Part shown: positions 1-33,654 of the stretch, in pieces
How positions within the stretch are numbered: the first letter of the stretch is position 1
Layout: every line of letters begins with the position of its first letter
Source of the DNA: a virus
DNA length: 34,451 nucleotides
Virus record (IMG/VR): IMGVR_UViG_3300036835_000456
Coordinates: 1 to 34,451 of that record
Reading direction: 5' to 3' (one strand)
Notes under the pieces: model-generated
Seen by the model: the letters and a program-made list of their open reading frames with translations, nothing else
Told to the model about the DNA's origin: nothing
Databases searched by the model: none
Position numbers and translations under genes: made by a program

Positions 1-52
1 ACAACCATACGAACGTCATCAGCGTAAACAGCGTCCGTGTTATCCCCGTCAC
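1..52 (-). CDS. Partial membrane-protein gene cut by window start
   Basis: A GTG codon at 50-52 opens a frame that runs off the window edge. The visible start is MTGITRTLFTLMTFVWL, hydrophobic and compatible with a membrane segment. The GTG overlaps the TGA of the upstream gene in a GTGA arrangement, the coupling seen throughout this genome, and a purine-rich GGAGGGA lies just upstream. It would be the fifth gene of the leftward early operon. Only 17 codons are visible, so function cannot be assigned. Confidence 0.5.
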   Translation of the reverse strand, partial: MTGITRTLFTLMTFVWL

Positions 53-417
53 GTTCCCTCCACCCACGCCAACCAGCTGTCGGCGATCTTCAGCACGTCG
101 GCGCTCTTCAGGTCCGGGCGGCTGGCGCCGAACGCGGCCGCGGCCTTGAGCACGGCCAGTCTGGTAATCCGCTCATCACGATCACTCAGAACTGCGGGAG
201 TTGTGGCTGAGTCGAGCACCTCGAGCTCACGGATGAAGCCCTTGGCGTCGACCTCCAAGCGCACGTGCGCGCCGACGTCGGGCAACTCGAGCGGGTGGAA
301 CTGGGAGACGTTAACCCACGCGCCGCCGATCTTGAGGCCGGTGCGATTGGTGGCCTCGACGACGCCCTCCACCTGTTGCGTCGGGACGCGCCCGTTCATC
401 GCTCGTTCACCGCTCAT
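49..417 (-). CDS. Hypothetical early protein, 122 aa
   Basis: The 122-residue product has a beta-rich N-terminal half (VEGVVEATNRTGLKIGG, then WVNVSQFHPLELPDVGAHV), loosely reminiscent of a small OB-like barrel. The C-terminal half is helical (LAVLKAAAAFGASRPDL, then SADVLKIADSWLAWVEG). I do not recognise the family. An early-operon DNA- or protein-binding role is only inference. Two starts are possible: ATG at 417, which overlaps the upstream gene by 11 bases, or an in-frame ATG at 399 (MNGRVPTQQ). Neither has a clear ribosome binding site. It is the fourth gene of the leftward operon. Confidence 0.75.
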   Translation of the reverse strand: MSGERAMNGRVPTQQVEGVVEATNRTGLKIGGAWVNVSQFHPLELPDVGAHVRLEVDAKGFIRELEVLDSATTPAVLSDRDERITRLAVLKAAAAFGASRPDLKSADVLKIADSWLAWVEGT

Positions 418-511
418 GCTCGTGGCCCATGTTGCGCGCTAGCCAGTACAGCCATACGTAGCCGGCGATGGCTACCAGCACGCCCCCAATGATCACTTTC
501 CGCCTGCTCAT
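407..511 (-). CDS. Micro membrane protein, 34 aa
   Basis: The product is MSRRKVIIGGVLVAIAGYVW followed by LYWLARNMGHEHER. It has a basic N-terminus, one hydrophobic segment of about 20 residues and a charged, His-containing tail, so a single-pass membrane protein is likely. Its ATG overlaps the TGA of the AAWRAG-motif gene upstream (TGATG), implying coupled translation. The same gene pair, an AAWRAG protein followed by a micro membrane protein joined by TGATG, occurs at 3136-3515. No function is known. Small size limits confidence, but the coupling and the repeated arrangement support it. Confidence 0.6.
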   Translation of the reverse strand: MSRRKVIIGGVLVAIAGYVWLYWLARNMGHEHER

Positions 512-786
512 CAGAACGCGACCTCATCGTCATCGAAGGATGGCCGCGGGCGACGGTCGGTGCGGCGCAGCAGGTCCTCGACGCGGCCGTCCTCGAGCAG
601 GCACAGCAGCTCGCGCAGCACGGGGACCAGGTCGACGAGTCGGGCGCTGTCCTGCAGCGCGGCACGGCCGCCGGCACGCCAGGCGGCGCCCCACACGGCG
701 GCCATGTCTTCCGACTCGCGCGGGTGGTGGTGCTTCCAGGCGAAAAACTGGCCGGCGGCACTGGTGAGCTGGAGCGGGGCTGGCAT
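511..786 (-). CDS. AAWRAG-motif early protein, copy 1 (91 aa)
   Basis: Residues 12-39 hold FFAWK, a HP-x-E-x-ED stretch and AVWGAAWRAG. These are shared almost unchanged with the protein at 3136-3414, so the two are paralogues on opposite arms of the early region. The middle (LVDLVPVLRELLCLLEDG) is predicted helical. The C-terminus is charged (RRTDRRPRP, FDDDEVAF). A good ribosome binding site (GGGAGGA) precedes the ATG, and the gene starts 3 bases after the SWIM gene ends. A micro membrane protein follows, joined by TGATG. No enzymatic motif is visible. An adaptor or host-takeover role would be a guess. Confidence 0.8.
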   Translation of the reverse strand: MPAPLQLTSAAGQFFAWKHHHPRESEDMAAVWGAAWRAGGRAALQDSARLVDLVPVLRELLCLLEDGRVEDLLRRTDRRPRPSFDDDEVAF

Positions 787-789
787 GCC

Positions 790-1377
790 TCAGTCCTCCC
801 GCTCGGTGCGTGGCACGAACGAGTGCGCGCCCGTGTGGTAGGCCGGCTTGGCACACACGCGCTTACGATCTGGCGTATACGCCGTGCACAACGGGCCGCA
901 TAGCGGCTCGACATCCTCGTCCGACTCACCGACGTGGTTGGTGACGTAAGGCGCTGGCCCACCGAGGATACGGGCGAGCGGCGCATCGTCCTCGAAGCGC
1001 TTGAAGATGTCGTCGTACTTCGCCGCGGTTTTCTCAGACTCAGACTGCTCGGCGACCAGGTCGCAATGCAGACGCACCGCGAGTTGGTGCTTGCAGTCGT
1101 GGCGACGGGCGTCGTAGCAGGTGCAGCTGGTGCGGGTGGTGAAGTAGACCTCGTCGGAGTCGGCGCTCGAGCGGATGCCGTACGCCTTGCGGCCGTCGCG
1201 TGTGCGGCACTTGAGCCACTGGCCGGCGTCGGTGGCGATGGCGACGGCCTTGGCGCCGCGCGGGTCGGATGCGGGGAGAAGTATGGTGCTCACGGTTGAT
1301 GCCCTCTGTAGCAGGGTGTTGACCTCGAGCAGGTCGGCGCCTCTAACGCTGGCCTGCTCTCTTTGTGTCACGTTCAT
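790..1377 (-). CDS. SWIM-type zinc-finger protein
   Basis: Residues 85-97 read CTCYDARRHDCKH, the CxC...CxH pattern of SWIM zinc fingers, which mediate DNA or protein binding. A second ligand cluster follows near the C-terminus (C160, C164, C175, H181, H185, around CAKPAYHTGAHSF). Residues 98-140 between them are charged and helical. It is the first gene of the leftward early operon. The longest frame starts at ATG 1375-1377, but the promoter -10 TATACT (1378-1383) abuts that ATG. The in-frame GTG at 1369-1371, six bases downstream of the -10, is therefore the likelier start of a leaderless mRNA (193 aa). A DNA-linked early role is inferred. Confidence 0.85.
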   Translation of the reverse strand: MNVTQREQASVRGADLLEVNTLLQRASTVSTILLPASDPRGAKAVAIATDAGQWLKCRTRDGRKAYGIRSSADSDEVYFTTRTSCTCYDARRHDCKHQLAVRLHCDLVAEQSESEKTAAKYDDIFKRFEDDAPLARILGGPAPYVTNHVGESDEDVEPLCGPLCTAYTPDRKRVCAKPAYHTGAHSFVPRTERED

Positions 1378-1406
1378 AGTATATTGAACGCGCTACTATT
1401 ACGCAA
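1378..1406 (-). promoter_or_regulatory. Leftward early promoter, leaderless type
   Basis: On the minus strand TTGCGT (1406-1401) and TATACT (1383-1378) are separated by exactly 17 bases. Six bases after TATACT comes GTG (1371-1369), in frame with the SWIM gene. This spacing places the transcription start at or next to the start codon, as in leaderless genes. The promoter shares the same 37 bases with the rightward repressor promoter. Confidence 0.7.
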
Positions 1407-1414
1407 CATATAAT
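1384..1414 (+). promoter_or_regulatory. Repressor promoter, leaderless type
   Basis: TATAAT at 1409-1414 is followed by six bases and then the ATG of the XRE gene at 1421, so the mRNA is probably leaderless. The best -35 is TTGAAC at 1384-1389 with a long 19-base spacer. It interlocks with the leftward promoter: each -35 sits beside the other promoter's -10. RNA polymerase bound to one should exclude the other, as in a lysis-lysogeny switch. Confidence 0.7.
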
Positions 1415-1420
1415 GGGCGT

Positions 1421-1654
1421 ATGCTGAACACTGCCGAGACGCAATTCGCACGGACGCTGGCCGTCCGAGTTCGCACGCTGCGCCTCTATCACGCTCTGAC
1501 CCAACAGGACCTCGCGAGACTCGCCGGTGTGAGCCGCACGGCCGTCCACCACATCGAGCACGGCACGCACCTGCCGCGCCCGAGCACCCTGCGCCAGCTG
1601 GCGCGTGCACTGCATGTCAACGTCACCAGACTCACCACCGACGAGGGCGAGTAA
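1421..1654 (+). CDS. XRE/Cro-CI family helix-turn-helix repressor
   Basis: The 77-residue protein is a single helix-turn-helix domain. LTQQDLARLAGVSRTAVHHI gives the two helices of the HTH_3 (Cro/C1) fold, followed by the typical EHGTHLPRPSTLRQLARAL. There is no C-terminal dimerisation or LexA-type cleavage domain, so it resembles a minimal Cro- or Xre-like regulator. It lies alone on the plus strand opposite the leftward operon, with overlapping promoters. It most probably binds that region and controls both directions. ATG 1421 is supported by TATAAT six bases upstream. Confidence 0.92.
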   Translation: MLNTAETQFARTLAVRVRTLRLYHALTQQDLARLAGVSRTAVHHIEHGTHLPRPSTLRQLARALHVNVTRLTTDEGE

Positions 1655-1663
1655 AAAAGAGAG

Positions 1664-1693
1664 GCCCCGCGCCGCGTGTCGCTCGGCCGGGGC
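1664..1693 (+). terminator. GC-rich hairpin after the repressor gene
   Basis: GCCCCG (1664-1669) pairs with CGGGGC (1688-1693), and GCCG (1671-1674) pairs with CGGC (1684-1687), giving a 10-bp stem with one bulged base and a 9-base loop. No T-run follows, so it may slow polymerase, protect the 3' end of the repressor mRNA or act with a factor rather than terminate alone. Confidence 0.4.
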
Positions 1694-1731
1694 AGTGGCA
1701 GATCCAACAGTGTGAAAGGACTGAACCTGCA

Positions 1732-2445
1732 ATGACGAGTGTAACTCGGCTACCAACGAGTGCCACGCCTGATGTCGATTTGTCGAGTTATCCGCTGCCC
1801 GTCCAGGAAGCATTCCGCCGTCTCTTGCTGCCTGGTCTGGCCGACGAGATCATCCTGGACGGCGAAGGTTCGTTCGCGGCTTTGTACGAGCGCGTCAGCG
1901 ACCCTCGTCTCGAGCAGGGTTACTCACTAGACCACCAGCGACTGGACGGCTTGGTCGAGGCGCATAGCAACGGCTGGCGTGTCCGCCGCGGCGACGTCTT
2001 CCGCGAGACCCACTCTGGTGAAGACATCTACGAGCGCCCGCTGCTGAGCATCCTGCGCGAACGTGCACGCCACGGCTTGGTCCAGGCTGTGGTTTACCCA
2101 CGCGATGATCGGTTCGCGCGTGACGCGGCGTGGCTCGAGCTCGTGATCCGCGAGCACTGGCACTTCCAGGTCGAGGTTCGCGTTGTGGGCTCGGGCGATG
2201 ACTTCACCGACGACTCGCCGCTCGGCTACCTGCTCCGCGCGGCCAAGGGCTACAAGTCCAAGCAGGTGTGCTGGGCCGACGTCTTCAAAGCCGCCGGGCC
2301 ATACGCGTGCTACAGAACGCCTGTTCTACTATCCTTAGAGCGTGGGGGTGGCACGTGGGTGGCAGATCGTACGGTTGCCAGCGCGGAGCGGACAAATTTC
2401 AAATGTGTCCGCACTTGTCCTCCCGGAGCCCATGCCGGTGGCTGA
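1732..2445 (+). CDS. Serine recombinase catalytic domain, truncated
   Basis: Residues 47-170 match the resolvase/invertase catalytic domain. They show YERVS with the nucleophile Ser56 and Arg54, then SLDHQ, then a THSGEDIYERP segment, then DRFAR with Arg127 and Arg130. Phage large serine integrases continue for a further 250-400 residues with recombinase and zinc-ribbon domains, which are absent here. From about residue 190 the frame runs through what looks like regulatory DNA (2314-2420), so the last 45-50 residues may be read-through. A 45-residue N-terminal extension is also unusual. GAAAGGA lies 11 bases before the ATG. It may be a decayed integrase or a minimal recombinase needing another DNA-binding subunit. 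Confidence 0.8.
   Translation: MTSVTRLPTSATPDVDLSSYPLPVQEAFRRLLLPGLADEIILDGEGSFAALYERVSDPRLEQGYSLDHQRLDGLVEAHSNGWRVRRGDVFRETHSGEDIYERPLLSILRERARHGLVQAVVYPRDDRFARDAAWLELVIREHWHFQVEVRVVGSGDDFTDDSPLGYLLRAAKGYKSKQVCWADVFKAAGPYACYRTPVLLSLERGGGTWVADRTVASAERTNFKCVRTCPPGAHAGG
2314..2332 (+). promoter_or_regulatory. LexA-box-like palindrome over a -10 element
   Basis: AGAACGCCTGTTCT (2314-2327) is a perfect 5-bp inverted repeat with a 4-base centre. It matches the GAAC-N4-GTTC core of the Gram-positive SOS box. TACTAT at 2327-2332, a reasonable -10, touches its right edge. No good -35 is seen. It lies inside the 3' end of the recombinase frame, about 100 bases upstream of the next gene. An eight-base core could occur once in a window this size by chance. 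Confidence 0.35.
2375..2412 (+). promoter_or_regulatory. Candidate promoter with 25-bp palindromic operator
   Basis: Positions 2388-2412 form a palindrome with 11 of 12 base pairs matching around a central C at 2400. The outer arms are GCGGACA and TGTCCGC and the inner arms are ATTT and AAAT. TTGCCA (2375-2380), an 18-base spacer and TCAAAT (2399-2404) form a possible promoter whose -10 lies inside the palindrome, so a bound protein would block it. The ATG of the next gene is at 2432 with GGAG upstream. A further TTGTCC half-site is at 2415-2420. A palindrome of the same GGACA-N11-TGTCC geometry lies at 2896-2916. Confidence 0.55.
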
Positions 2446-2893
2446 CGATGAACAGCAGCTACCCATGTTCCTGCACAACAGCCAGGATCCCGGACGGGAT
2501 CTGCTCGTTCACGTGGTGGATGTCCAGGCAGAGGCGATACGCAACCTGACCGGGCTGCTGCAACTCGCGGGCCTGCTGAAGGAACAGGACAATGGCCACA
2601 AGCCGGCCTCGGCACCACCCCAGCCGCTTGGCAAAAAGATCCATCGTCCCCAGAACAAGGCGCTACGTGAATGGCATACATTCCGCGCCCACTTCCAGCA
2701 TCTCGAGCACATCGTGCGGCGCGACCATCAGCTCGAGCCCGACGACGAGGTGACCAGGGAAATGCTGTACGCCGCGGGTGGGCCGCCGCCGAAGACCATG
2801 ACGCGGCACCAGGAATTCCACGGTCTGAAGTCCGAGCAGTGGCCGCCCTCAACCTGGCCGGAGGAGGCCCCGTCGAGGCCTGAAACGCCCTGA
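2432..2893 (+). CDS. Hypothetical early protein between two operators, 153 aa
   Basis: The family is not recognised. Residues 25-50 (LLVHVVDVQAEAIRNLTGLL) are amphipathic and helical. Residues 60-115 are basic and rich in His and Arg (LGKKIHRPQNKALREWHTF, then HLEHIVRRDHQLEP). The C-terminus is Pro/Glu-rich. It is the first gene of the rightward early operon. It is bracketed by the palindromes at 2388-2412 and 2896-2916, which suggests tight repression. The frame is open back to 2342, but ATG 2432 is preferred because GGAG (2425-2428) precedes it and it lies just beyond the promoter candidate. A nucleic-acid-binding role is possible but unproven. Confidence 0.75.
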   Translation: MPVADDEQQLPMFLHNSQDPGRDLLVHVVDVQAEAIRNLTGLLQLAGLLKEQDNGHKPASAPPQPLGKKIHRPQNKALREWHTFRAHFQHLEHIVRRDHQLEPDDEVTREMLYAAGGPPPKTMTRHQEFHGLKSEQWPPSTWPEEAPSRPETP

Positions 2894-2895
2894 CA

Positions 2896-2916
2896 GGACA
2901 AAAAATATGTTTGTCC
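2896..2916. promoter_or_regulatory. Palindromic operator-like site GGACA-N11-TGTCC
   Basis: GGACAAA (2896-2902) and TTTGTCC (2910-2916) form a perfect 7-bp inverted repeat around an AT-rich 7-base centre. Length and outer arms match the 2390-2410 palindrome exactly. It begins 3 bases after the stop of the 2432-2893 gene and ends 46 bases before the ribbon-helix-helix-like gene. It could be an operator for that protein. A hairpin in RNA is possible, but no T-run follows. The nearby CCCGG (2915-2919) and CCGGG (2929-2933) could form a second weak stem. Confidence 0.5.
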
Positions 2917-2962
2917 CGGTGTGTCGCGCCGGGGGGCTTGATGCCGATGCAAGCTACGGAAC

Positions 2963-3139
2963 ATGCGCATGCAGGTGGAGGTGCGACGCGAGGATGAGGA
3001 CCCGCTGCGCACGCTGGCATTCAAAGAGCATCGGTCCGTTCGTGAGCAGGCCAGTTTTCTGTTGCACCTCAGAATTCAGGAGGAGCTAGCCCGACTCAAC
3101 CTGAGACCGGAGCCGGCGGCCGAGGCTTTATCAGCGTGA
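2963..3139 (+). CDS. Small ribbon-helix-helix-like protein, 58 aa
   Basis: The product begins MRMQVEVRREDEDPLRTLAF and continues KEHRSVREQASFLLHLRIQ, then EELARLNLRPEPAAEALSA. The short basic beta strand, two helices and the HRSVREQASFLL turn fit the ribbon-helix-helix (Arc/MetJ-like) fold, in which dimers bind palindromic operators. It starts at ATG 2963 or ATG 2969 and its TGA overlaps the GTG of the next gene. It sits 46 bases downstream of the 2896-2916 palindrome, so autoregulation is plausible. Its small size explains why an automatic caller could miss it. The fold assignment is by eye. Confidence 0.65.
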   Translation: MRMQVEVRREDEDPLRTLAFKEHRSVREQASFLLHLRIQEELARLNLRPEPAAEALSA

Positions 3140-3414
3140 GCGCGATGGTCGAGGCCGATCCCCGCGGTCGGTTCTTTGCCTGGAAGCGCTCGCATCCGCA
3201 CGAGGCCGAGGACCCGAGCGCGGTGTGGGCCGCGGCATGGCGAGCCGGCAGCTGGGACGCCATCCGTCGCAACGCCAACCTCGGGCTGAACCTGAGCCAG
3301 ATCGTGCAGCGGCTCGAGGAGTTGGCTCACCTGTATGCCGATGTTGAGGTCGACCGCCACGTGGAGGACGAGTACGAGCGCGGGTCAGCGTACTGGCGGG
3401 GCGAGTCGTCGTGA
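3136..3414 (+). CDS. AAWRAG-motif early protein, copy 2 (92 aa)
   Basis: This is a paralogue of the leftward-arm protein at 511-786. Residues 11-38 contain RFFAWK, HPHEAED and AVWAAAWRAG. The C-terminal half diverges completely (LSQIVQRLEELAHLYADVEV, helical, then a charged tail). The GTG start overlaps the preceding TGA, and the stop overlaps the ATG of a micro membrane protein, the same pairing as on the other arm. Conservation of only the N-terminal 30 residues suggests they form the functional interface and that the variable tail sets specificity. Function is unknown. Confidence 0.82.
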   Translation: MSAMVEADPRGRFFAWKRSHPHEAEDPSAVWAAAWRAGSWDAIRRNANLGLNLSQIVQRLEELAHLYADVEVDRHVEDEYERGSAYWRGESS

Positions 3415-3515
3415 TGTTCGAGCTGCCGTGGTGGGCGTGGCTGCTGGCGGGCTGGCTGCTGGCGAGCGTGTGCCTCACCCTGGCGCTGTCGCGCTGGTTC
3501 CGGTACCTCCGATGA
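3414..3515 (+). CDS. Micro membrane protein, 33 aa
   Basis: The product is MFELPWWAWLLAGWLLASVC then LTLALSRWFRYLR. It is one Trp- and Leu-rich membrane segment with a basic C-terminus, so a cytoplasmic tail is likely. Its ATG overlaps the TGA of the AAWRAG copy 2 gene and its own TGA overlaps the ATG of the nuclease gene. It is unrelated in sequence to the micro protein at 407-511 but occupies the same place in the cassette. Confidence 0.6.
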   Translation: MFELPWWAWLLAGWLLASVCLTLALSRWFRYLR

Positions 3516-3967
3516 GCATCGCGATCCGCGGTCTGTCGTTTCCCGCGACGCGCGCCCAGGCATACCGCGTGGCGCCGCGCGGGCCGTACTTCACCCGTCA
3601 TCGCCTGCTGCTGCTCGAGGGCGCCGGCGAAGAGGAGCTCACCCGCTCCGTCAAGGCGTGCGCGAAGTACTACGGCTGGAACGGGGTGCACACCCGCGAC
3701 AGCGACGGCGTGATGGAGAGCGTCCACCTCGAGCGGCTGGACGGGTTCACCGAAGCCAAGGGCGCGCCCGACTGGTTGTTCTGGCACGAGGAGCTGGGCC
3801 AGCACTTCTGGGCGGAGCTCAAGGGCGCAACCGGACACCTGAGCGCCTATCAGAAGCGCGAGATCCCATCCATGCGCAAGGGCGGCGCCGTCGTCTTCGT
3901 CTGGTACCCGCGCGACGCGGTGACCATCGAGCGCGTCTTTCAGTACGGATTGGAGGACCACGCGTAA
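3512..3967 (+). CDS. VRR-NUC family endonuclease
   Basis: The 151-aa protein has the PD-(D/E)xK nuclease core of VRR-NUC domains: GAPD at residues 84-87 (Asp87), AELK at 101-104 (Glu102, Lys104) and the trailing HLSAYQ at 109-114, where Gln114 is the typical fifth motif. Phage members are small stand-alone enzymes thought to act on branched or nicked DNA during replication and recombination. A Holliday-junction or flap-type activity is therefore inferred. The ATG overlaps the preceding TGA (ATGA), which decides the start even though the frame is open to 3335. The stop TAA overlaps the next ATG. A RecT annealase lies downstream in the same operon. Confidence 0.85.
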   Translation: MSIAIRGLSFPATRAQAYRVAPRGPYFTRHRLLLLEGAGEEELTRSVKACAKYYGWNGVHTRDSDGVMESVHLERLDGFTEAKGAPDWLFWHEELGQHFWAELKGATGHLSAYQKREIPSMRKGGAVVFVWYPRDAVTIERVFQYGLEDHA

Positions 3968-4407
3968 TGCGCGTTACCCGCGTCAGTGTGGCGCTCGAGC
4001 AGCGCCTCGGCGACAACGACTACGGCTCCGAACGGGCCCAGGTGGAATATTCCGCCGAACTGGGCGCCGACGACGACGTCATCGATTGCACCACCGAGCT
4101 GCTCAAACTCGCGCGCGCCCACCTCTTCCATGACCTGAGCAACTCGCGCACGCTGGCCATTCGCCGCAAAGCGAACCCGCCGGCGCGGTTGTGTGCGGAG
4201 TGCAAGCAGCCGCTCGGCGACGAAGACGACTATCGCCACCCGGCGTGCGAGGAGGCGATGCTCGAGCGGCGCAAGCAGCAGGAGGAGGAGCGCCGCGCGA
4301 AGTACGAGACCGACCGCAAAGAGCGCGAGGCAGAGTACCAGCGCCAGCGCGAGCTCGCGGGTGTCGGCGCCGCGACCGATGACGACGACGAGGACGAGCC
4401 GTTGTGA
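3967..4407 (+). CDS. Early protein with zinc knuckle and coiled coil, 146 aa
   Basis: The N-terminal 55 residues (VSVALEQRLGDNDYGSERAQ, then VEYSAEL) resemble a widespread uncharacterised phage domain with a beta-strand, 'NLGDY'-type turn and helix. Residues 76-94 give C76-x2-C79-x11-H91-x2-C94, a probable zinc knuckle. Residues 97-133 form a highly charged coiled coil rich in Glu, Arg and Gln. The tail is acidic (DDDDEDEPL), typical of SSB-like interaction tails. TAATG joins it to the nuclease upstream and GTGA to the next gene. A role in replication or recombination is inferred from position. Confidence 0.75.
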   Translation: MRVTRVSVALEQRLGDNDYGSERAQVEYSAELGADDDVIDCTTELLKLARAHLFHDLSNSRTLAIRRKANPPARLCAECKQPLGDEDDYRHPACEEAMLERRKQQEEERRAKYETDRKEREAEYQRQRELAGVGAATDDDDEDEPL

Positions 4408-18991: not shown

Positions 18992-21900
18992 ATGCCCGGC
19001 AGCGGCATCTGGCTCGACGACGACACCTACTCGCAGACGGCCGGCCAGATGTGGGCCCAGCAGGCGACGCAGCAGGTGCACGCCGGCGAGTCGTGGGCGC
19101 AACAGGCCATGCAGGCCGCCATTGCGCCCATTCAGGACACGCTCGGAAAACTGCAGTCGATGGTGCCGTCGGTGCCCCAGCCCGCGGCCGCCGCGCCTGC
19201 ACCCGCGCCACCGCCCGTCGTGCCGACGCCGGCGCCCACTCCCCTCCCGGAGCCCACGCCGGCGCCGACACCCCCACTCGGCGTGGCCCAGACGCCGGTC
19301 GCCGAGCCGACGCCTGCAGCACCACCAGGTGCGCCGACACCAACGCCCACGCCGTCGCCGTTGCCCACCCCACCCGAGGTGCCAACCCCGTCGCCGAGCC
19401 CGGCGCTGACGGACATGGCCAGTACTGGAGAAAACTGGGCGCAGCAGCAGATCCAGAACCTGCTGAATCCTGCACAGGCGACGCCCCAGACACCGTCAAC
19501 GCCGGCTGCCACCGCATTGCCCATCCCCGGACTGAACACGTCTGCGGCCGCGCCTACACCAACACCAGCGCCAGCAGCCCCGACACCGGCGACGGCTACC
19601 CCGACGCCCGCGGCCGGCCCGACGGGCGATATGCCGAACGTCCAGGTCGACTCGAGCTCGCCCGAGGCCTTCGTGCGTTCAGTCGCGCCGGCCGCGCAGT
19701 GGGTCCAGGACAAGACCGGGATTCCGGCCGCGGCAATGATCGGCATGGCCGCCAACGAGACCGGCTATGGCAAATCCGCACCGGGCAACAACCTGTTCGG
19801 CATCAAGGGTCAGGGCCCGGCAGGCGCGACGACGTCGGGTACCTGGGAGGACTACGGCAACGGCCCGGTGCAGATCACCGACCAGTTCCGCCGCTACGAC
19901 AACGCCACCCAGAGCTTCCAGGACTTCGTCGATTTTCTGCGCGACAACCCGCGCTACCAGGGTGTGATGAACCTGGTCGACCAGGGCAAGGCCAACGTCG
20001 GCAACTTCGTGCAGGGGCTCAAAGACGCCGGCTACATGACCGACCCGAACTACGTCGGCAAGATTCAGAGCATCGTCGACCAGTACCAGCCGGTCATCGA
20101 CCAGGCGCGCGGCGCCGTCTCGGGCGTGCAGGGTGCGGCGCAGAACGCGGTCAGTGCCGTCACCGGGCGGGGTGGCGATCCTGGCATGGGCGCGCCCGTC
20201 AACACGCCCGCGCAGGGCAGGCAAGCCGCCGCCGCGGTCGAGCCGCAGCGCCAGTTCGAACAAGAAGCAGGCCTGAGCACGTCGGACGCCTACACCGCGT
20301 GCGGCCCGGTCGCCGCCGCCGCGTTCGCGGCAACCTATGGCCGCAACCCGACGCCCAGTGAAGCGATCGCCCTCGCGCGTCAGGTCGGCTGGGACCCATC
20401 GACTGGCATGGCTGGCCCACAGAGCGAGGTCAATTTGCTCAACAAGATGGGCGTCGATGCCCACCTGGCTCAGGGCGTCAACTGGAGCGACGTCGCCTCG
20501 AGCGCCCAGAGCGGCAATCCCGTCATTGTGAGCACGCCGAACCACTACCTGTACGTTGACGGCTACAACTCAGACACCGGCCAGTACCACGTCGGCGCGA
20601 GCGGGCAGGCGCTGAGGGGTGGGTCGGACTGGATGACGCCCGACCAGATCGCGCAGGTGCCCGGCACCCACGGCGCGGCGACGGCGGCGATCTTCGTCGA
20701 TCACCCCATCGACGGCACGCAGCGGGCAACGCCTCCCGCCAGCGCGCTCACGATGGGTGCCAACCAGCCCGCGAGCTCGAGCCCGGACCTGGGCAGCCAA
20801 CTCTTGCAGACCGGCGGTTCAGCCCTGAACGTTCTCGGCTCGGCGGCACCGGACCTGGGCGCCGGTTACCTGCTCAAGACCGGCCAGGACCTGGCCACCG
20901 GCCTGCTGCAGTCGCCGGAGGTGCAGAGCAAGGCGCAGAACGTCGCCCAGGCGGTGCTGAACGTCGGCGGCCCGCCAACCCAGGCCGTGGGTCAGACCGG
21001 CCAGAACCTGCTCGGCCAGGCGCAGAGCATCCTGAGCCCATACGCCGCCGACATCAGCGCTGCACCGCAGTCGGTGAGCGACATGCTGTCGCAGAACGCG
21101 CTCGTGTCGCAGGGCATCCCCACCGTCCAGGGCGCGCTCAGCGCGGTGCCGGACCTCAGCGCGCAGGGCATCGCCGGGGTGGGCGACTGGTGGCAGCAGC
21201 AGAACGCGCTCGCCGATCAGTTGCAGGGTCAGGGTCGGCTCGGGCTCCAGGCCGGGCCACCGCTGGACATCACCAAACCGCTCGGGCCGCAGCTGGGCTT
21301 CGACCCGTACGGCCAGATCGTCCAGCAGGGCATCCCGCAACTGGTCAGCGGCGTGCAGCAAGGCAACGTCGGCGACATCCTCGGTGGCGCGCTGCAAACA
21401 GGATTGGGTGTGCTGGGTGGCGCGGCAGGTCCTGGCGGCGCGGCAACGGAGGCCGGTCGCGCGGCGCTCGCGGCCGCACCCGAGCTCGCGCGACTGGGTC
21501 CCGAAGCCGGTGCGCTCGGCGTGCCGTGGAGCCCCCAGTCGCTTGGACTCCTGCAACAGGGACCGCGAGAAGCGCTGCCGGCCATCCTGCGCCCGCTCGA
21601 CATCAGCGGCGTGCCCTGGTCCGATCAGTCGCTGGCCCTGTTGCAACAGGGCCCTGCGGCCACGGAGCTCGCGCCGGCCGCCTATAGCCCGCGTGGCGTC
21701 CTGCTCGACCCGCTCACCGGCCAGGAGATGGTGCCGCGTGCCGCAGCGCAGCAGGCGAACAGCTACGCGGCAGCGCAGGCGGCCAACCCAGAGGCAACGC
21801 AGTTCGTGCGCACCGCTGGCAATCAGTTCGAGCCCGTCGTTTCGGCGGCCCCGCAGGAGGCTGGCGACGTGCTGACCGGCCTGCGCAATCTGCTCGCCGC

Positions 21901-24076
21901 ACGCCAGGGAACGGGCGACATTATCGGCGGCGCTCAGCCGGGTGCGATCAACGCCGCCTTTGCCCGCGCGCTGGGTGGCGGCGCGGCCGGCGGTCTCGGC
22001 ACCTACGAGGCGACCGACCCGAACGACCCGAACCGCTGGCTCAAGGTCGCCGGTGGCACCGCCGCCGGCGCGCTGTTGGCCGGCCCTGGCGTCGATCTGG
22101 CTACGGCCCGACCCGGCGGTGTGGCGACTGCCGACTGGCTGCGCGCCGCCTATCGCGGCGGCATCATCGGTGGCTTCAACACCGCGGCCGACGTCGTGTT
22201 CAACTCGACGCTCACCCCGGTGCTCTCGGGCGGTGCTGGCCTTATCCGCGACCTGGCGAGCTTCCAGCCTGGGCGTATCCAGGGTCGTGTGCTGGGTGCC
22301 CAGTCTGGCATCGTCAACTGGACCGGCAACTTTCTGCGCGGGCTGAGCACTTCATTAGCAGCACCTGGCACCGTTTCGGCGCGAGCGGCTCCTGGCTTGC
22401 CGACGGTCGTCGCACGCGCACTCGAGGGCATGGGCGCGCTGCACGGCGCGTTTCAGAACGCCACTTCGCAATTGATCCAGAGCATGGAGCACGGCGCGGA
22501 ATCAGGTGCCAACGCTTCGGCTGCCGGGCTCAGTGGCCCGGCGTGGTTCACCGAGTTCCAACGTCAGTTCTCTGGGCCGGTCAGCGCACGGGTCCAGGCC
22601 ATGGGCGACCGCACGGCATTGCGCGGCGATCTGGGCACGCTGACCAGCGCGTTCGGCAGGTTTGTGAACCAAGCGGGTCCGGTCGGCGACGCGTTGTTCC
22701 CCGTATATCGCATGGGCATGGCCATGGCCGCCCGCATGGTCGAGTCCACGCCGCTCGGCTTGGCTGGTACGGCCTTCGATGTTGGGCGCGGTTTGCTCGG
22801 GCGCGGTCCGTACGCGGCCGGTCTTGGCACCACGCCAGCCGGCAGCGCCGTGGGGCCACTCACCGAGCGCCTGACCAACAATCTGGTCGGCACCGCGCTG
22901 AGTATGTGGCTGGCCAACAAGGCCGTGGGTGGCGCGATCACCGGCGCGGGACCCAGCGACCCCGGCCAGCGCCAGGTATGGCTCGCCGACGGCAATCAGC
23001 CGAACAGCTTCCTCGGACCCGATGGCGCGTATCACAGTTGGCAGAAGCTCCCGCCCGCACTGCGTGGGCCGATGATGACTGCTGGGGCCTACGCAGATGC
23101 GGTGCAGGCCTATAACGCTGCCACGGCTCGCCAGCAAACCGCAGGGCCCGAAGCGTATGGCGTCCAGGACCCGCGCGTGGCTGCCGCCGCACAGCTCGTG
23201 TCCGAAGTTGGGCAACAGCTCGCCTCAGCCACGCCGATGCGCACCTTCGCCAACCTGTATGACGCTCTGCAGTCCAATAGCGTGGCCGGTGTCGGCATGA
23301 CGTCTGCGGGCGACGTCGCTTCGAGCGTGTTGGGCGGTCTGGTGCCATTCTCGGGCGAGGTGCGGTCCATCGCTCAGATGACCGATCCCACCCAACGCCA
23401 GGCGCTCACGCCGCGGATGCCGCAGGAATTGCCGCAGAGTGTCCTCGAAAACGTGGCCCAGAATATTCCCGGGCTGCGCGAGAACCTGCCCGCACGCGTG
23501 GACATGCTCGGGCGACCCGTCAGCAACCCGTTGCAAGGACTCGGCGAGTTACTCCCGGTGCGCACTGCCGCTGGCCAGCCGACGCCAGTGCTGCAGGCGA
23601 TGCAAAACGTCGGCGTTGCCCCAGGCCCGACCCCACAAACGATCCCGTACGGGCCGTACGACGAGGTGCGGCTGACACCGCAGGAGCAACGGACATACGA
23701 CCAGTACCGCGGTCAGCTGACGCAGCAGATGGCAGACGGCATGGTCAGCTCGCCCCAGTGGCAGCAGATGGCGCAGAACGCTCAGCGGGCCGCGCTGCAG
23801 CGAGTTGACGCCGTGGCCGCCGACGCCGCGGGAAAAATGGTGCTCCGCGACATTGCCTCAGGACCTGGTGCAGGTCTGTCACGGATGCAGCCGACGGGCG
23901 TCATGGCGCCGGTCGTGGGCTACGGCCCAGACGTGACGGGTAATCAGCTCATGCTCCAGCAGCAATTACTGCGCAACGCATATCAGCACCAGGCGTTAAT
24001 GCAGTCGCTGCTGGGTGGCCAGACCGGGCTGCAGGGCTTACAGGCCGCCAACGCGGCCGCGGCGGGCGTCGTCTAG
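18992..24076 (+). CDS. Giant virion protein with GH73 and C39-like lysin domains
   Basis: The protein is 1694 aa. Residues 65-215 are a Pro/Thr/Ala-rich linker. Residues 225-370 match GH73 glucosaminidases (MIGMAANETGYGKSAPGNN, NLFGIKGQGP, QSFQDFVDFL), with catalytic Glu256 in NETGY. Residues 430-570 look like a C39-type papain-fold peptidase, with Cys437 in TACGPVAAAAF and His518 in PNHYLYVDGY. The remaining 1100 residues are Ala/Gly/Gln-rich, with a short internal repeat (GVPWSPQSLGLLQQGP near 843, GVPWSDQSLALLQQGP near 873) and possible membrane-active segments. The likely role is an ejected internal virion protein that opens the cell wall during DNA entry. It lies upstream of the scaffold and capsid genes. 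Confidence 0.85.
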   Translation: MPGSGIWLDDDTYSQTAGQMWAQQATQQVHAGESWAQQAMQAAIAPIQDTLGKLQSMVPSVPQPAAAAPAPAPPPVVPTPAPTPLPEPTPAPTPPLGVAQTPVAEPTPAAPPGAPTPTPTPSPLPTPPEVPTPSPSPALTDMASTGENWAQQQIQNLLNPAQATPQTPSTPAATALPIPGLNTSAAAPTPTPAPAAPTPATATPTPAAGPTGDMPNVQVDSSSPEAFVRSVAPAAQWVQDKTGIPAAAMIGMAANETGYGKSAPGNNLFGIKGQGPAGATTSGTWEDYGNGPVQITDQFRRYDNATQSFQDFVDFLRDNPRYQGVMNLVDQGKANVGNFVQGLKDAGYMTDPNYVGKIQSIVDQYQPVIDQARGAVSGVQGAAQNAVSAVTGRGGDPGMGAPVNTPAQGRQAAAAVEPQRQFEQEAGLSTSDAYTACGPVAAAAFAATYGRNPTPSEAIALARQVGWDPSTGMAGPQSEVNLLNKMGVDAHLAQGVNWSDVASSAQSGNPVIVSTPNHYLYVDGYNSDTGQYHVGASGQALRGGSDWMTPDQIAQVPGTHGAATAAIFVDHPIDGTQRATPPASALTMGANQPASSSPDLGSQLLQTGGSALNVLGSAAPDLGAGYLLKTGQDLATGLLQSPEVQSKAQNVAQAVLNVGGPPTQAVGQTGQNLLGQAQSILSPYAADISAAPQSVSDMLSQNALVSQGIPTVQGALSAVPDLSAQGIAGVGDWWQQQNALADQLQGQGRLGLQAGPPLDITKPLGPQLGFDPYGQIVQQGIPQLVSGVQQGNVGDILGGALQTGLGVLGGAAGPGGAATEAGRAALAAAPELARLGPEAGALGVPWSPQSLGLLQQGPREALPAILRPLDISGVPWSDQSLALLQQGPAATELAPAAYSPRGVLLDPLTGQEMVPRAAAQQANSYAAAQAANPEATQFVRTAGNQFEPVVSAAPQEAGDVLTGLRNLLAARQGTGDIIGGAQPGAINAAFARALGGGAAGGLGTYEATDPNDPNRWLKVAGGTAAGALLAGPGVDLATARPGGVATADWLRAAYRGGIIGGFNTAADVVFNSTLTPVLSGGAGLIRDLASFQPGRIQGRVLGAQSGIVNWTGNFLRGLSTSLAAPGTVSARAAPGLPTVVARALEGMGALHGAFQNATSQLIQSMEHGAESGANASAAGLSGPAWFTEFQRQFSGPVSARVQAMGDRTALRGDLGTLTSAFGRFVNQAGPVGDALFPVYRMGMAMAARMVESTPLGLAGTAFDVGRGLLGRGPYAAGLGTTPAGSAVGPLTERLTNNLVGTALSMWLANKAVGGAITGAGPSDPGQRQVWLADGNQPNSFLGPDGAYHSWQKLPPALRGPMMTAGAYADAVQAYNAATARQQTAGPEAYGVQDPRVAAAAQLVSEVGQQLASATPMRTFANLYDALQSNSVAGVGMTSAGDVASSVLGGLVPFSGEVRSIAQMTDPTQRQALTPRMPQELPQSVLENVAQNIPGLRENLPARVDMLGRPVSNPLQGLGELLPVRTAAGQPTPVLQAMQNVGVAPGPTPQTIPYGPYDEVRLTPQEQRTYDQYRGQLTQQMADGMVSSPQWQQMAQNAQRAALQRVDAVAADAAGKMVLRDIASGPGAGLSRMQPTGVMAPVVGYGPDVTGNQLMLQQQLLRNAYQHQALMQSLLGGQTGLQGLQAANAAAAGVV

Positions 24077-32919: not shown

Positions 32920-33654
32920 ATGACGCTCAAGACGCGCGTCGTTGGCTTGCTGCAGTACGCCCAGGGCGACGACGTCCAGACGTACCTGCAGCGCTGGCTC
33001 GCGCAGTCGATTCGTCTGACCGACGGCCTGTTCGATCCGGTCTCGGGCCACAATCACAACGGCAGCGGCACCAATGGGCCGGTGGTCGCCGGTGGAGGCG
33101 GCGTCACCATGGTCTGGCGCGGCGCCTGGTCATCGGCGACGGGCTACAGCAAGAACGACGGCGTCAGTTACCAGGGCTCGAGCTACATCGCGCTGAACGC
33201 AGTGGGTCCGTCGGCCACGCCACCACCCTCAGATACCGCCAACTGGGGGCTGCTCGCCGCGGCTGGCGCCACCGGACCGCAGGGCCCAGCTGGCGCGACT
33301 GGGGCACAGGGCCCGACCGGGCCAACAGGCGCCACAGGTCCACAGGGTGCCACCGGCGCGCAGGGCCCGATCGGCAATACCGGGCCGCAGGGAGCTACCG
33401 GCGCCACCGGGCCGCAGGGTCCAACAGGCGCAACGGGTGCTCAGGGCCCGGCTGGCCCACCGGGCCTGACCTGGCGCGGCAACTGGGTCTCGACCAACAG
33501 TTACGCCCTGAACGACGCCGCCTACGACACGGCCAATGGGTCGTCGTATATCTGCATCGCCGCGGTCGGCACGGGCGGCGGCGCGCCACACACCGACGCG
33601 ACGCACTGGTCGCTGCTGGCCTCGAGCGCCGCGGCGACATGGGGGTCTCCATAA
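32920..33654 (+). CDS. Collagen-like fibre with two chitin-binding-type modules
   Basis: Residues 116-183 are about 22 uninterrupted Gly-X-Y triplets ([10 protein letters not shown]-type), a collagen-like triple helix. Two related modules flank it: [20 protein letters not shown] then [11 protein letters not shown] (66-113), and [20 protein letters not shown] then [11 protein letters not shown] (184-236). They share the W-RG-W----Y--ND--Y--GSSYI pattern of CBM5/12-like carbohydrate modules. The first 60 residues ([29 protein letters not shown]) probably attach to the tail. The role is binding of surface glycans. The protein ends in WGSP like the nozzle protein. Confidence 0.83.

Follow-up and report, generated by a model that had tools for sequence, protein, structure and literature searches.

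Phages encode small early proteins with a single transmembrane (TM) segment, examples of the type being T4 Imm and P22 SieB. In phage lambda, RexA and RexB are encoded by two adjacent early-region genes near the repressor, and one of them is soluble and the other a membrane protein. The C-terminal tail of SSB (DDDIPF), an acidic end that usually finishes in -PF, makes its contact with a basic pocket of the partner protein via the carboxylate of the terminal Phe and via acidic residues (PMC5872125).

The window, by which we mean the whole stretch of DNA analysed, is the IMG/VR virus record IMGVR_UViG_3300036835_000456 (34,451 bases) from an uncultivated temperate phage. The four ORFs described in its initial annotation were borne out: on the minus strand, gene A (511–786), encoding 91 aa, and behind it a 34-aa single-TM ORF (407–511); on the plus strand, gene B (3136–3414), encoding 92 aa from a GTG start or 89 aa from the ATG at 3145, and a 33-aa single-TM protein, Bm (3414–3515, MFELPWWAWLLAGWLLASVCLTLALSRWFRYLR). 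The members of each pair are joined by TGATG. Both A and B carry the core FFAWK-HP-E-ED-AVW-AAWRAG and a long helix; A has an acidic tail ending in ...DDDEVAF, and B has the motif GSAYW near its C terminus. Like proteins of the Imm and SieB kind, Bm is a membrane protein encoded in the early region, but its family is only about 32 aa long (30–40 aa) with its own conserved pattern, W..AS-C.....ARWFR. The early region that holds A and B also contains RecT-like, nuclease and replication initiation genes. Elsewhere, the window encodes a 1694-aa virion-type protein (18992–24076), which has a glucosaminidase domain (3e-26) and a C39 peptidase-like domain (8e-7), and a probable tail-fibre protein with collagen-like repeats (33183–33654).

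Scans of IMG/VR yielded about 30 related contigs, several of them 38–41 kb long. Every one of the 28 records searched whole, the window included, contains a copy of the AAWRAG protein, and 20 of the 28 contain a clear second copy on the opposite strand, typically 3.5–5 kb away. Orthologues of the left copy in related IMG/VR records are up to 96% identical. In the general arrangement of the relatives, the counterparts of the 49–417 gene, A and the 790–1377 gene read leftward; next come an HTH gene and a large serine recombinase gene reading rightward, a second HTH gene reading leftward, and then g2342, a 58-aa gene, B, Bm and a nuclease gene, all rightward. The window stops just beyond the 49–417 gene (left end, 1–48) at 34.5 kb, and since the longest relatives reach 38–41 kb, its left arm is probably truncated. 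No match to A or B was obtained by tblastn against 50,697 named phages. A and the 49–417 gene were each scanned against 84,980 species genomes of bacteria and archaea, again with no match and thus no host.

A and B are paralogs of long standing, two forms of one small early protein, probably a coiled coil, that belongs to this uncultivated temperate phage lineage. Within the record they are 50% identical over 62 residues (E about 6e-14; 5.9e-14 in the search), and their local alignment score is 137, whereas none of 2000 shuffles scored above 54. A core common to both proteins had been proposed earlier, with conservation only in the 30 N-terminal residues; the core is real, but the alignment extends to about residue 70, and the tails are kept within the group of each arm, so that they do not form the variable specificity region envisaged at first. 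Among 24 sequences of the left group, L53, P55, L57, L61, D66 and E70 are invariant. A tree was built for 28 left and 19 right copies on a short alignment of 91 columns; one branch, supported at 97/92, divides the two arms, and three right copies (L058, L063, and L064) are placed nearest the left group. On this split, the duplication is old, and the arms have not freely exchanged copies since. The two genes were also considered as inverted repeats that could serve inversion; their DNA similarity is confined to about 100 nt, too little to argue from.

The duplication does not include the membrane ORFs. The initial annotation had described a duplicated two-gene cassette, in which a shared core with variable specificity is paired with a small membrane protein on both arms, and the window itself does present both ORF pairs with their TGATG junctions. 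The two membrane ORFs are, however, unrelated (alignment score 22, shuffle mean 24), and only the soluble genes are homologous. The 34-aa left ORF is found in the window only, having no counterpart in 28 relatives or in a scan of IMG/VR with a degenerate DNA pattern, the way in which both Bm and this ORF were traced. Insertions vary at the place where it sits, between A and the 49–417 gene: the latter follows A directly in 13 of 27 records, and the others have an insert that differs by record and consists either of TM ORFs (34–66 aa) or of ORFs that are not membrane proteins. A small TM ORF comes next after A in 5/27 records and after the following gene in 6/25, so that the membrane neighbour of A is background. 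Most homologues of the left protein thus have no membrane partner, an outcome that the initial annotation had named as refuting its proposal. Neither are the TGATG junctions a special feature: here and in the relatives, neighbouring genes often overlap by TGATG or ATGA, and a -1/-4 overlap is present behind 11 of 16 nuclease genes and behind 11 of 12 members of the 3967–4407 family. Together with the conservation of the tails within arms and the one old branch between the copies, these observations contradict a cassette duplicated as a unit, which is very improbable. The membrane ORF behind the left copy would be an unrelated passenger.

The leftward operon also includes, upstream of A, a gene (790–1377, minus strand) with a weak resemblance to SWIM zinc fingers (E 0.05, under the cut-off), and downstream a conserved small gene (49–417, minus strand; VEGVVE..N.TGLKIGGAWVNVS.FHP.ELPE..), which is OB/SH3-like by eye only and gave no match in Pfam or PDB. 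The left copies themselves are marked by their C termini. All 27 complete ones end in Phe or Trp, compared with 14 of 262 proteins in other families, and the final 12 residues hold on average 3.9 acidic residues ahead of the last one (27 copies). Like the SSB tail, they have a flexible acidic C terminus and a terminal aromatic residue with a free carboxylate; they differ from SSB in that the left copy itself has no OB domain, the Pro of SSB tails is mostly absent and Trp replaces Phe in 13 of the 27 records. The codons for EV in the tail of A (GAGGTG) may also act in ribosome binding for the gene that comes after it, so some of the conservation of the tail could stem from that role. On the right arm, the family of the 3967–4407 gene (plus strand), which gave no Pfam or PHROG match, has members ending in acidic ..ED(I/L/E)PL, an SSB-tail-like C terminus with Leu replacing Phe; the relatives L054, L056, L069, L075, and L082 end in ..DDDEDIPL or DDEDLPL. 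Acidic tails are thus a theme of this region.

On the right arm, a recurrent pair of soluble and membrane genes does occur. A 58-aa conserved ORF (2963–3139, plus strand) overlaps the start of B by a stop/start junction, and Bm is followed by a putative nuclease or Holliday junction resolvase-like gene (3512–3967, plus strand; PHROG 5702, 2.6e-5). A small TM ORF lies behind B in 10 of 18 records, and nine of these ORFs belong to the Bm family. To avoid bias, IMG/VR was also scanned for Bm alone and the sequence upstream was then read. This gave 20 loci, of which two (L087 and L091) are cut by the contig edge and 18 are readable; they include near-copies of one phage (L085, L090, and L102) and likewise of another (L084 and L101). 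The right-slot protein is encoded directly upstream, with a stop/start overlap, in 15 of the 18 loci. A CRYCG zinc-type gene is inserted between the slot protein and Bm in two (L086 and L100), and another helical protein, with no match to the B profile, stands upstream of Bm in one (L089). The B profile was matched at 2e-7 or better by 10 of the 15 distinct slot proteins tested, including that of the window, at 8e-5 by L093, and weakly (E 0.009–0.022) by the most divergent ones, L092, L088, and L083. Records that at first seemed to lack B have the slot occupied by a divergent relative of it. The motif S-x-Y-[WY] is present in 13 of 15 slot proteins as against 32 of 3738 other ORF tails. By the Bm-only scan, the profile scores and the retention of this motif, the constant element of the right arm is the membrane protein, and its soluble partner is the variable one. 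A zinc-type protein of about 100 aa (CRYCGR..GGDEFSFGPDD..PGVCPTC) flanks Bm on either side, lying between B and Bm in L054, L071, and L073 and after Bm in L063.

The paralogs therefore share an N-terminal core and have specialised C termini: an acidic stretch with a terminal Phe or Trp on the left, and S-x-Y-W, with Bm in most phages, on the right. They also differ in rate. In 92% of record pairs, it is the right copy that has diverged more, with a median identity of 43% vs. 66% for the left copy. A comparison of the window with the relative G011 was the one clear case in which the limits of exchange could be read: the left arm is 83–95% identical and Bm with the genes beyond it mostly 92–97%, while identity is 53% for the HTH protein, 20% for the recombinase, 47% for g2342, 41% for the 58-aa gene and 43% for B. 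By these identities, B appears to lie within the exchanged block and Bm just outside it. No other gene co-evolved significantly with B in Mantel tests; Bm followed the nuclease gene and the 790–1377 gene. Median dN/dS values are 0.36 for A, 0.59 for B and 0.33 for Bm (0.12 for Bm between the window and G011); the medians are rough, many pairs being divergent, and fit selection acting on each of the three at the protein level. A is a fixed, slowly evolving member of the leftward operon, and B, in the rightward operon by the integrase/immunity block, is fast-evolving or exchanged.

Another explanation is that A and B are ordinary small early accessory proteins, helpers in host take-over or in nucleic-acid transactions, that their neighbours reflect operon synteny, and that Bm is an independent early membrane protein; the adjacency of B and Bm could then be inherited without any interaction. 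It is consistent with the lack of family and fold matches and with the fact that B lacks Bm in at least five records (L056, L058, L067, L069, and L070), as well as with the zinc-type gene between the two in others. The strong linkage of Bm to the slot across otherwise mosaic genomes argues against it, as does the retention of S-x-Y-W although much of the right protein has been replaced. We regard such an accessory role as quite possible, if short of an even chance.

The two paralogs are probably under different control, as had been suggested, although the pairing with a membrane gene that was part of the same suggestion holds for the right arm only. Two operator-like 21-bp palindromes of the form GGACA-N11-TGTCC (GGACAAA-N7-TTTGTCC) are present in the window, at 2390–2410 (GGACAAATTTCAAATGTGTCC) and, upstream of the operon with the right copy, at 2896–2916 (GGACAAAAAATATGTTTGTCC). 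Matching sites were found in L072, L075, L079, and others (also L080 and L056). No phage has more than three of them; they keep fixed positions about the second HTH gene and the right operon, and the last one lies just ahead of the operon of the 58-aa gene, B and Bm. No such palindrome was found at the left operon. The left operon begins at a compact gap (1378–1420) that resembles a divergent promoter; this gap separates it from the gene of an HTH regulator of the Cro/C1 type (1421–1654, plus strand; Pfam HTH_31, 3e-14) and contains AGTATA..TG / CAACATATAATGG elements recurring in many relatives; a consensus scan of the gap for a sigma-70 site gave none above threshold. With palindromes at the right operon only and the left operon beginning at this gap, different regulation of the two arms is likely.

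The region between the arms is incomplete in the window. The large serine recombinase gene (1732–2445, plus strand; Pfam Resolvase, 1e-9) is truncated: its product departs from the family after ...AAKGYKSKQ near position 2268 and continues in unrelated sequence, with the junction near 2268–2341. In the relatives, this locus encodes a recombinase of about 660 aa and the second, oppositely oriented HTH gene. Compared with G027 (L075), about 2.1 kb is missing, the serine integrase being cut after residue ~180; the second HTH gene, a probable repressor, and one operator are gone, and two operators remain. As judged from this sequence, the phage of the window is probably unable to lysogenise. The gap might also be a fault of the assembly.

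The place of the operators also bears on the comparison with lambda. B and Bm, a variable soluble partner and a constant membrane protein beside the immunity block, could constitute a sensor/effector exclusion pair working like RexA/RexB, which they resemble as two adjacent early-region genes near a repressor. However, RexAB is made from the prophage, along with the repressor, whereas the B–Bm operon is preceded by operator palindromes and is therefore probably silent in lysogens, so that the timing of expression would also differ. The proteins are of another size, Bm having about 32 aa and one TM segment, and no sequence relation was found: there was no family match, and no fold match for A (PDB and BFVD) or B (BFVD). 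A Rex-like exclusion function is thus improbable.

The initial annotation knew of no described system with this build, and this stands in the sense that A, B and Bm have no significant profile match in Pfam, PHROGs or NCBIfam and that neither these nor the PDB and fold searches gave any annotation or structural match supporting an activity. Foldseek searches of A (BFVD and PDB) and B (BFVD) returned nothing at E < 1, and the PDB profile search gave designed helical proteins only. PHROG 2440, a "transcriptional regulator," was reached at 5e-4 by one of 38 members, mostly through the helical tail, and was set aside as a probable coiled-coil similarity. AlphaFold predicted for both proteins short N-terminal helices followed by one long helix, with an unstructured tail in A; the pTM values of these models are low (0.43 and 0.47). 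The literature on SSB-tail mimics of phage origin and on paralogous arm genes yielded nothing on the A/B family.

Overall, the sequence comparisons establish the homology of A and B, their old paralogy, their arm-specific tails and the pairing on the right arm. The best explanation, to which as a whole we assign a probability of roughly 0.4, builds on these findings and has A docking on a partner in DNA metabolism and B acting with Bm at the membrane. Under this explanation, both would be oligomeric adaptors made early in infection. A would dock by its free C-terminal aromatic residue, in the manner of the SSB tail, onto a DNA replication or recombination protein. B would be made together with Bm and act at the inner membrane, where Bm could be an anchor or an effector and the variable soluble part would meet differing targets. 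Taken together, these two adaptor roles are a tentative proposal that is less likely to be true than not. A more elaborate version seems unlikely: a constant Bm of about 32 aa would use a fixed S-x-Y-W contact to hold a rapidly exchanged soluble coiled-coil partner that moves with the immunity/integration block, and A would have been re-tailored with an SSB-tail-like end for DNA metabolism, so that one small fold would serve membrane and replication roles within a single phage.

B and Bm provide a defined pair, and the tail of A a defined motif, in a phage group whose early genes are almost unannotated. If the reading of a constant membrane protein with a variable partner is true, membrane interference by phage genes would have a further, simple arrangement that is new. 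Should the reading fail, the locus remains a clear-cut example of an early gene duplicated long ago, with a left-arm and a right-arm copy that differ greatly in how fast they evolve.
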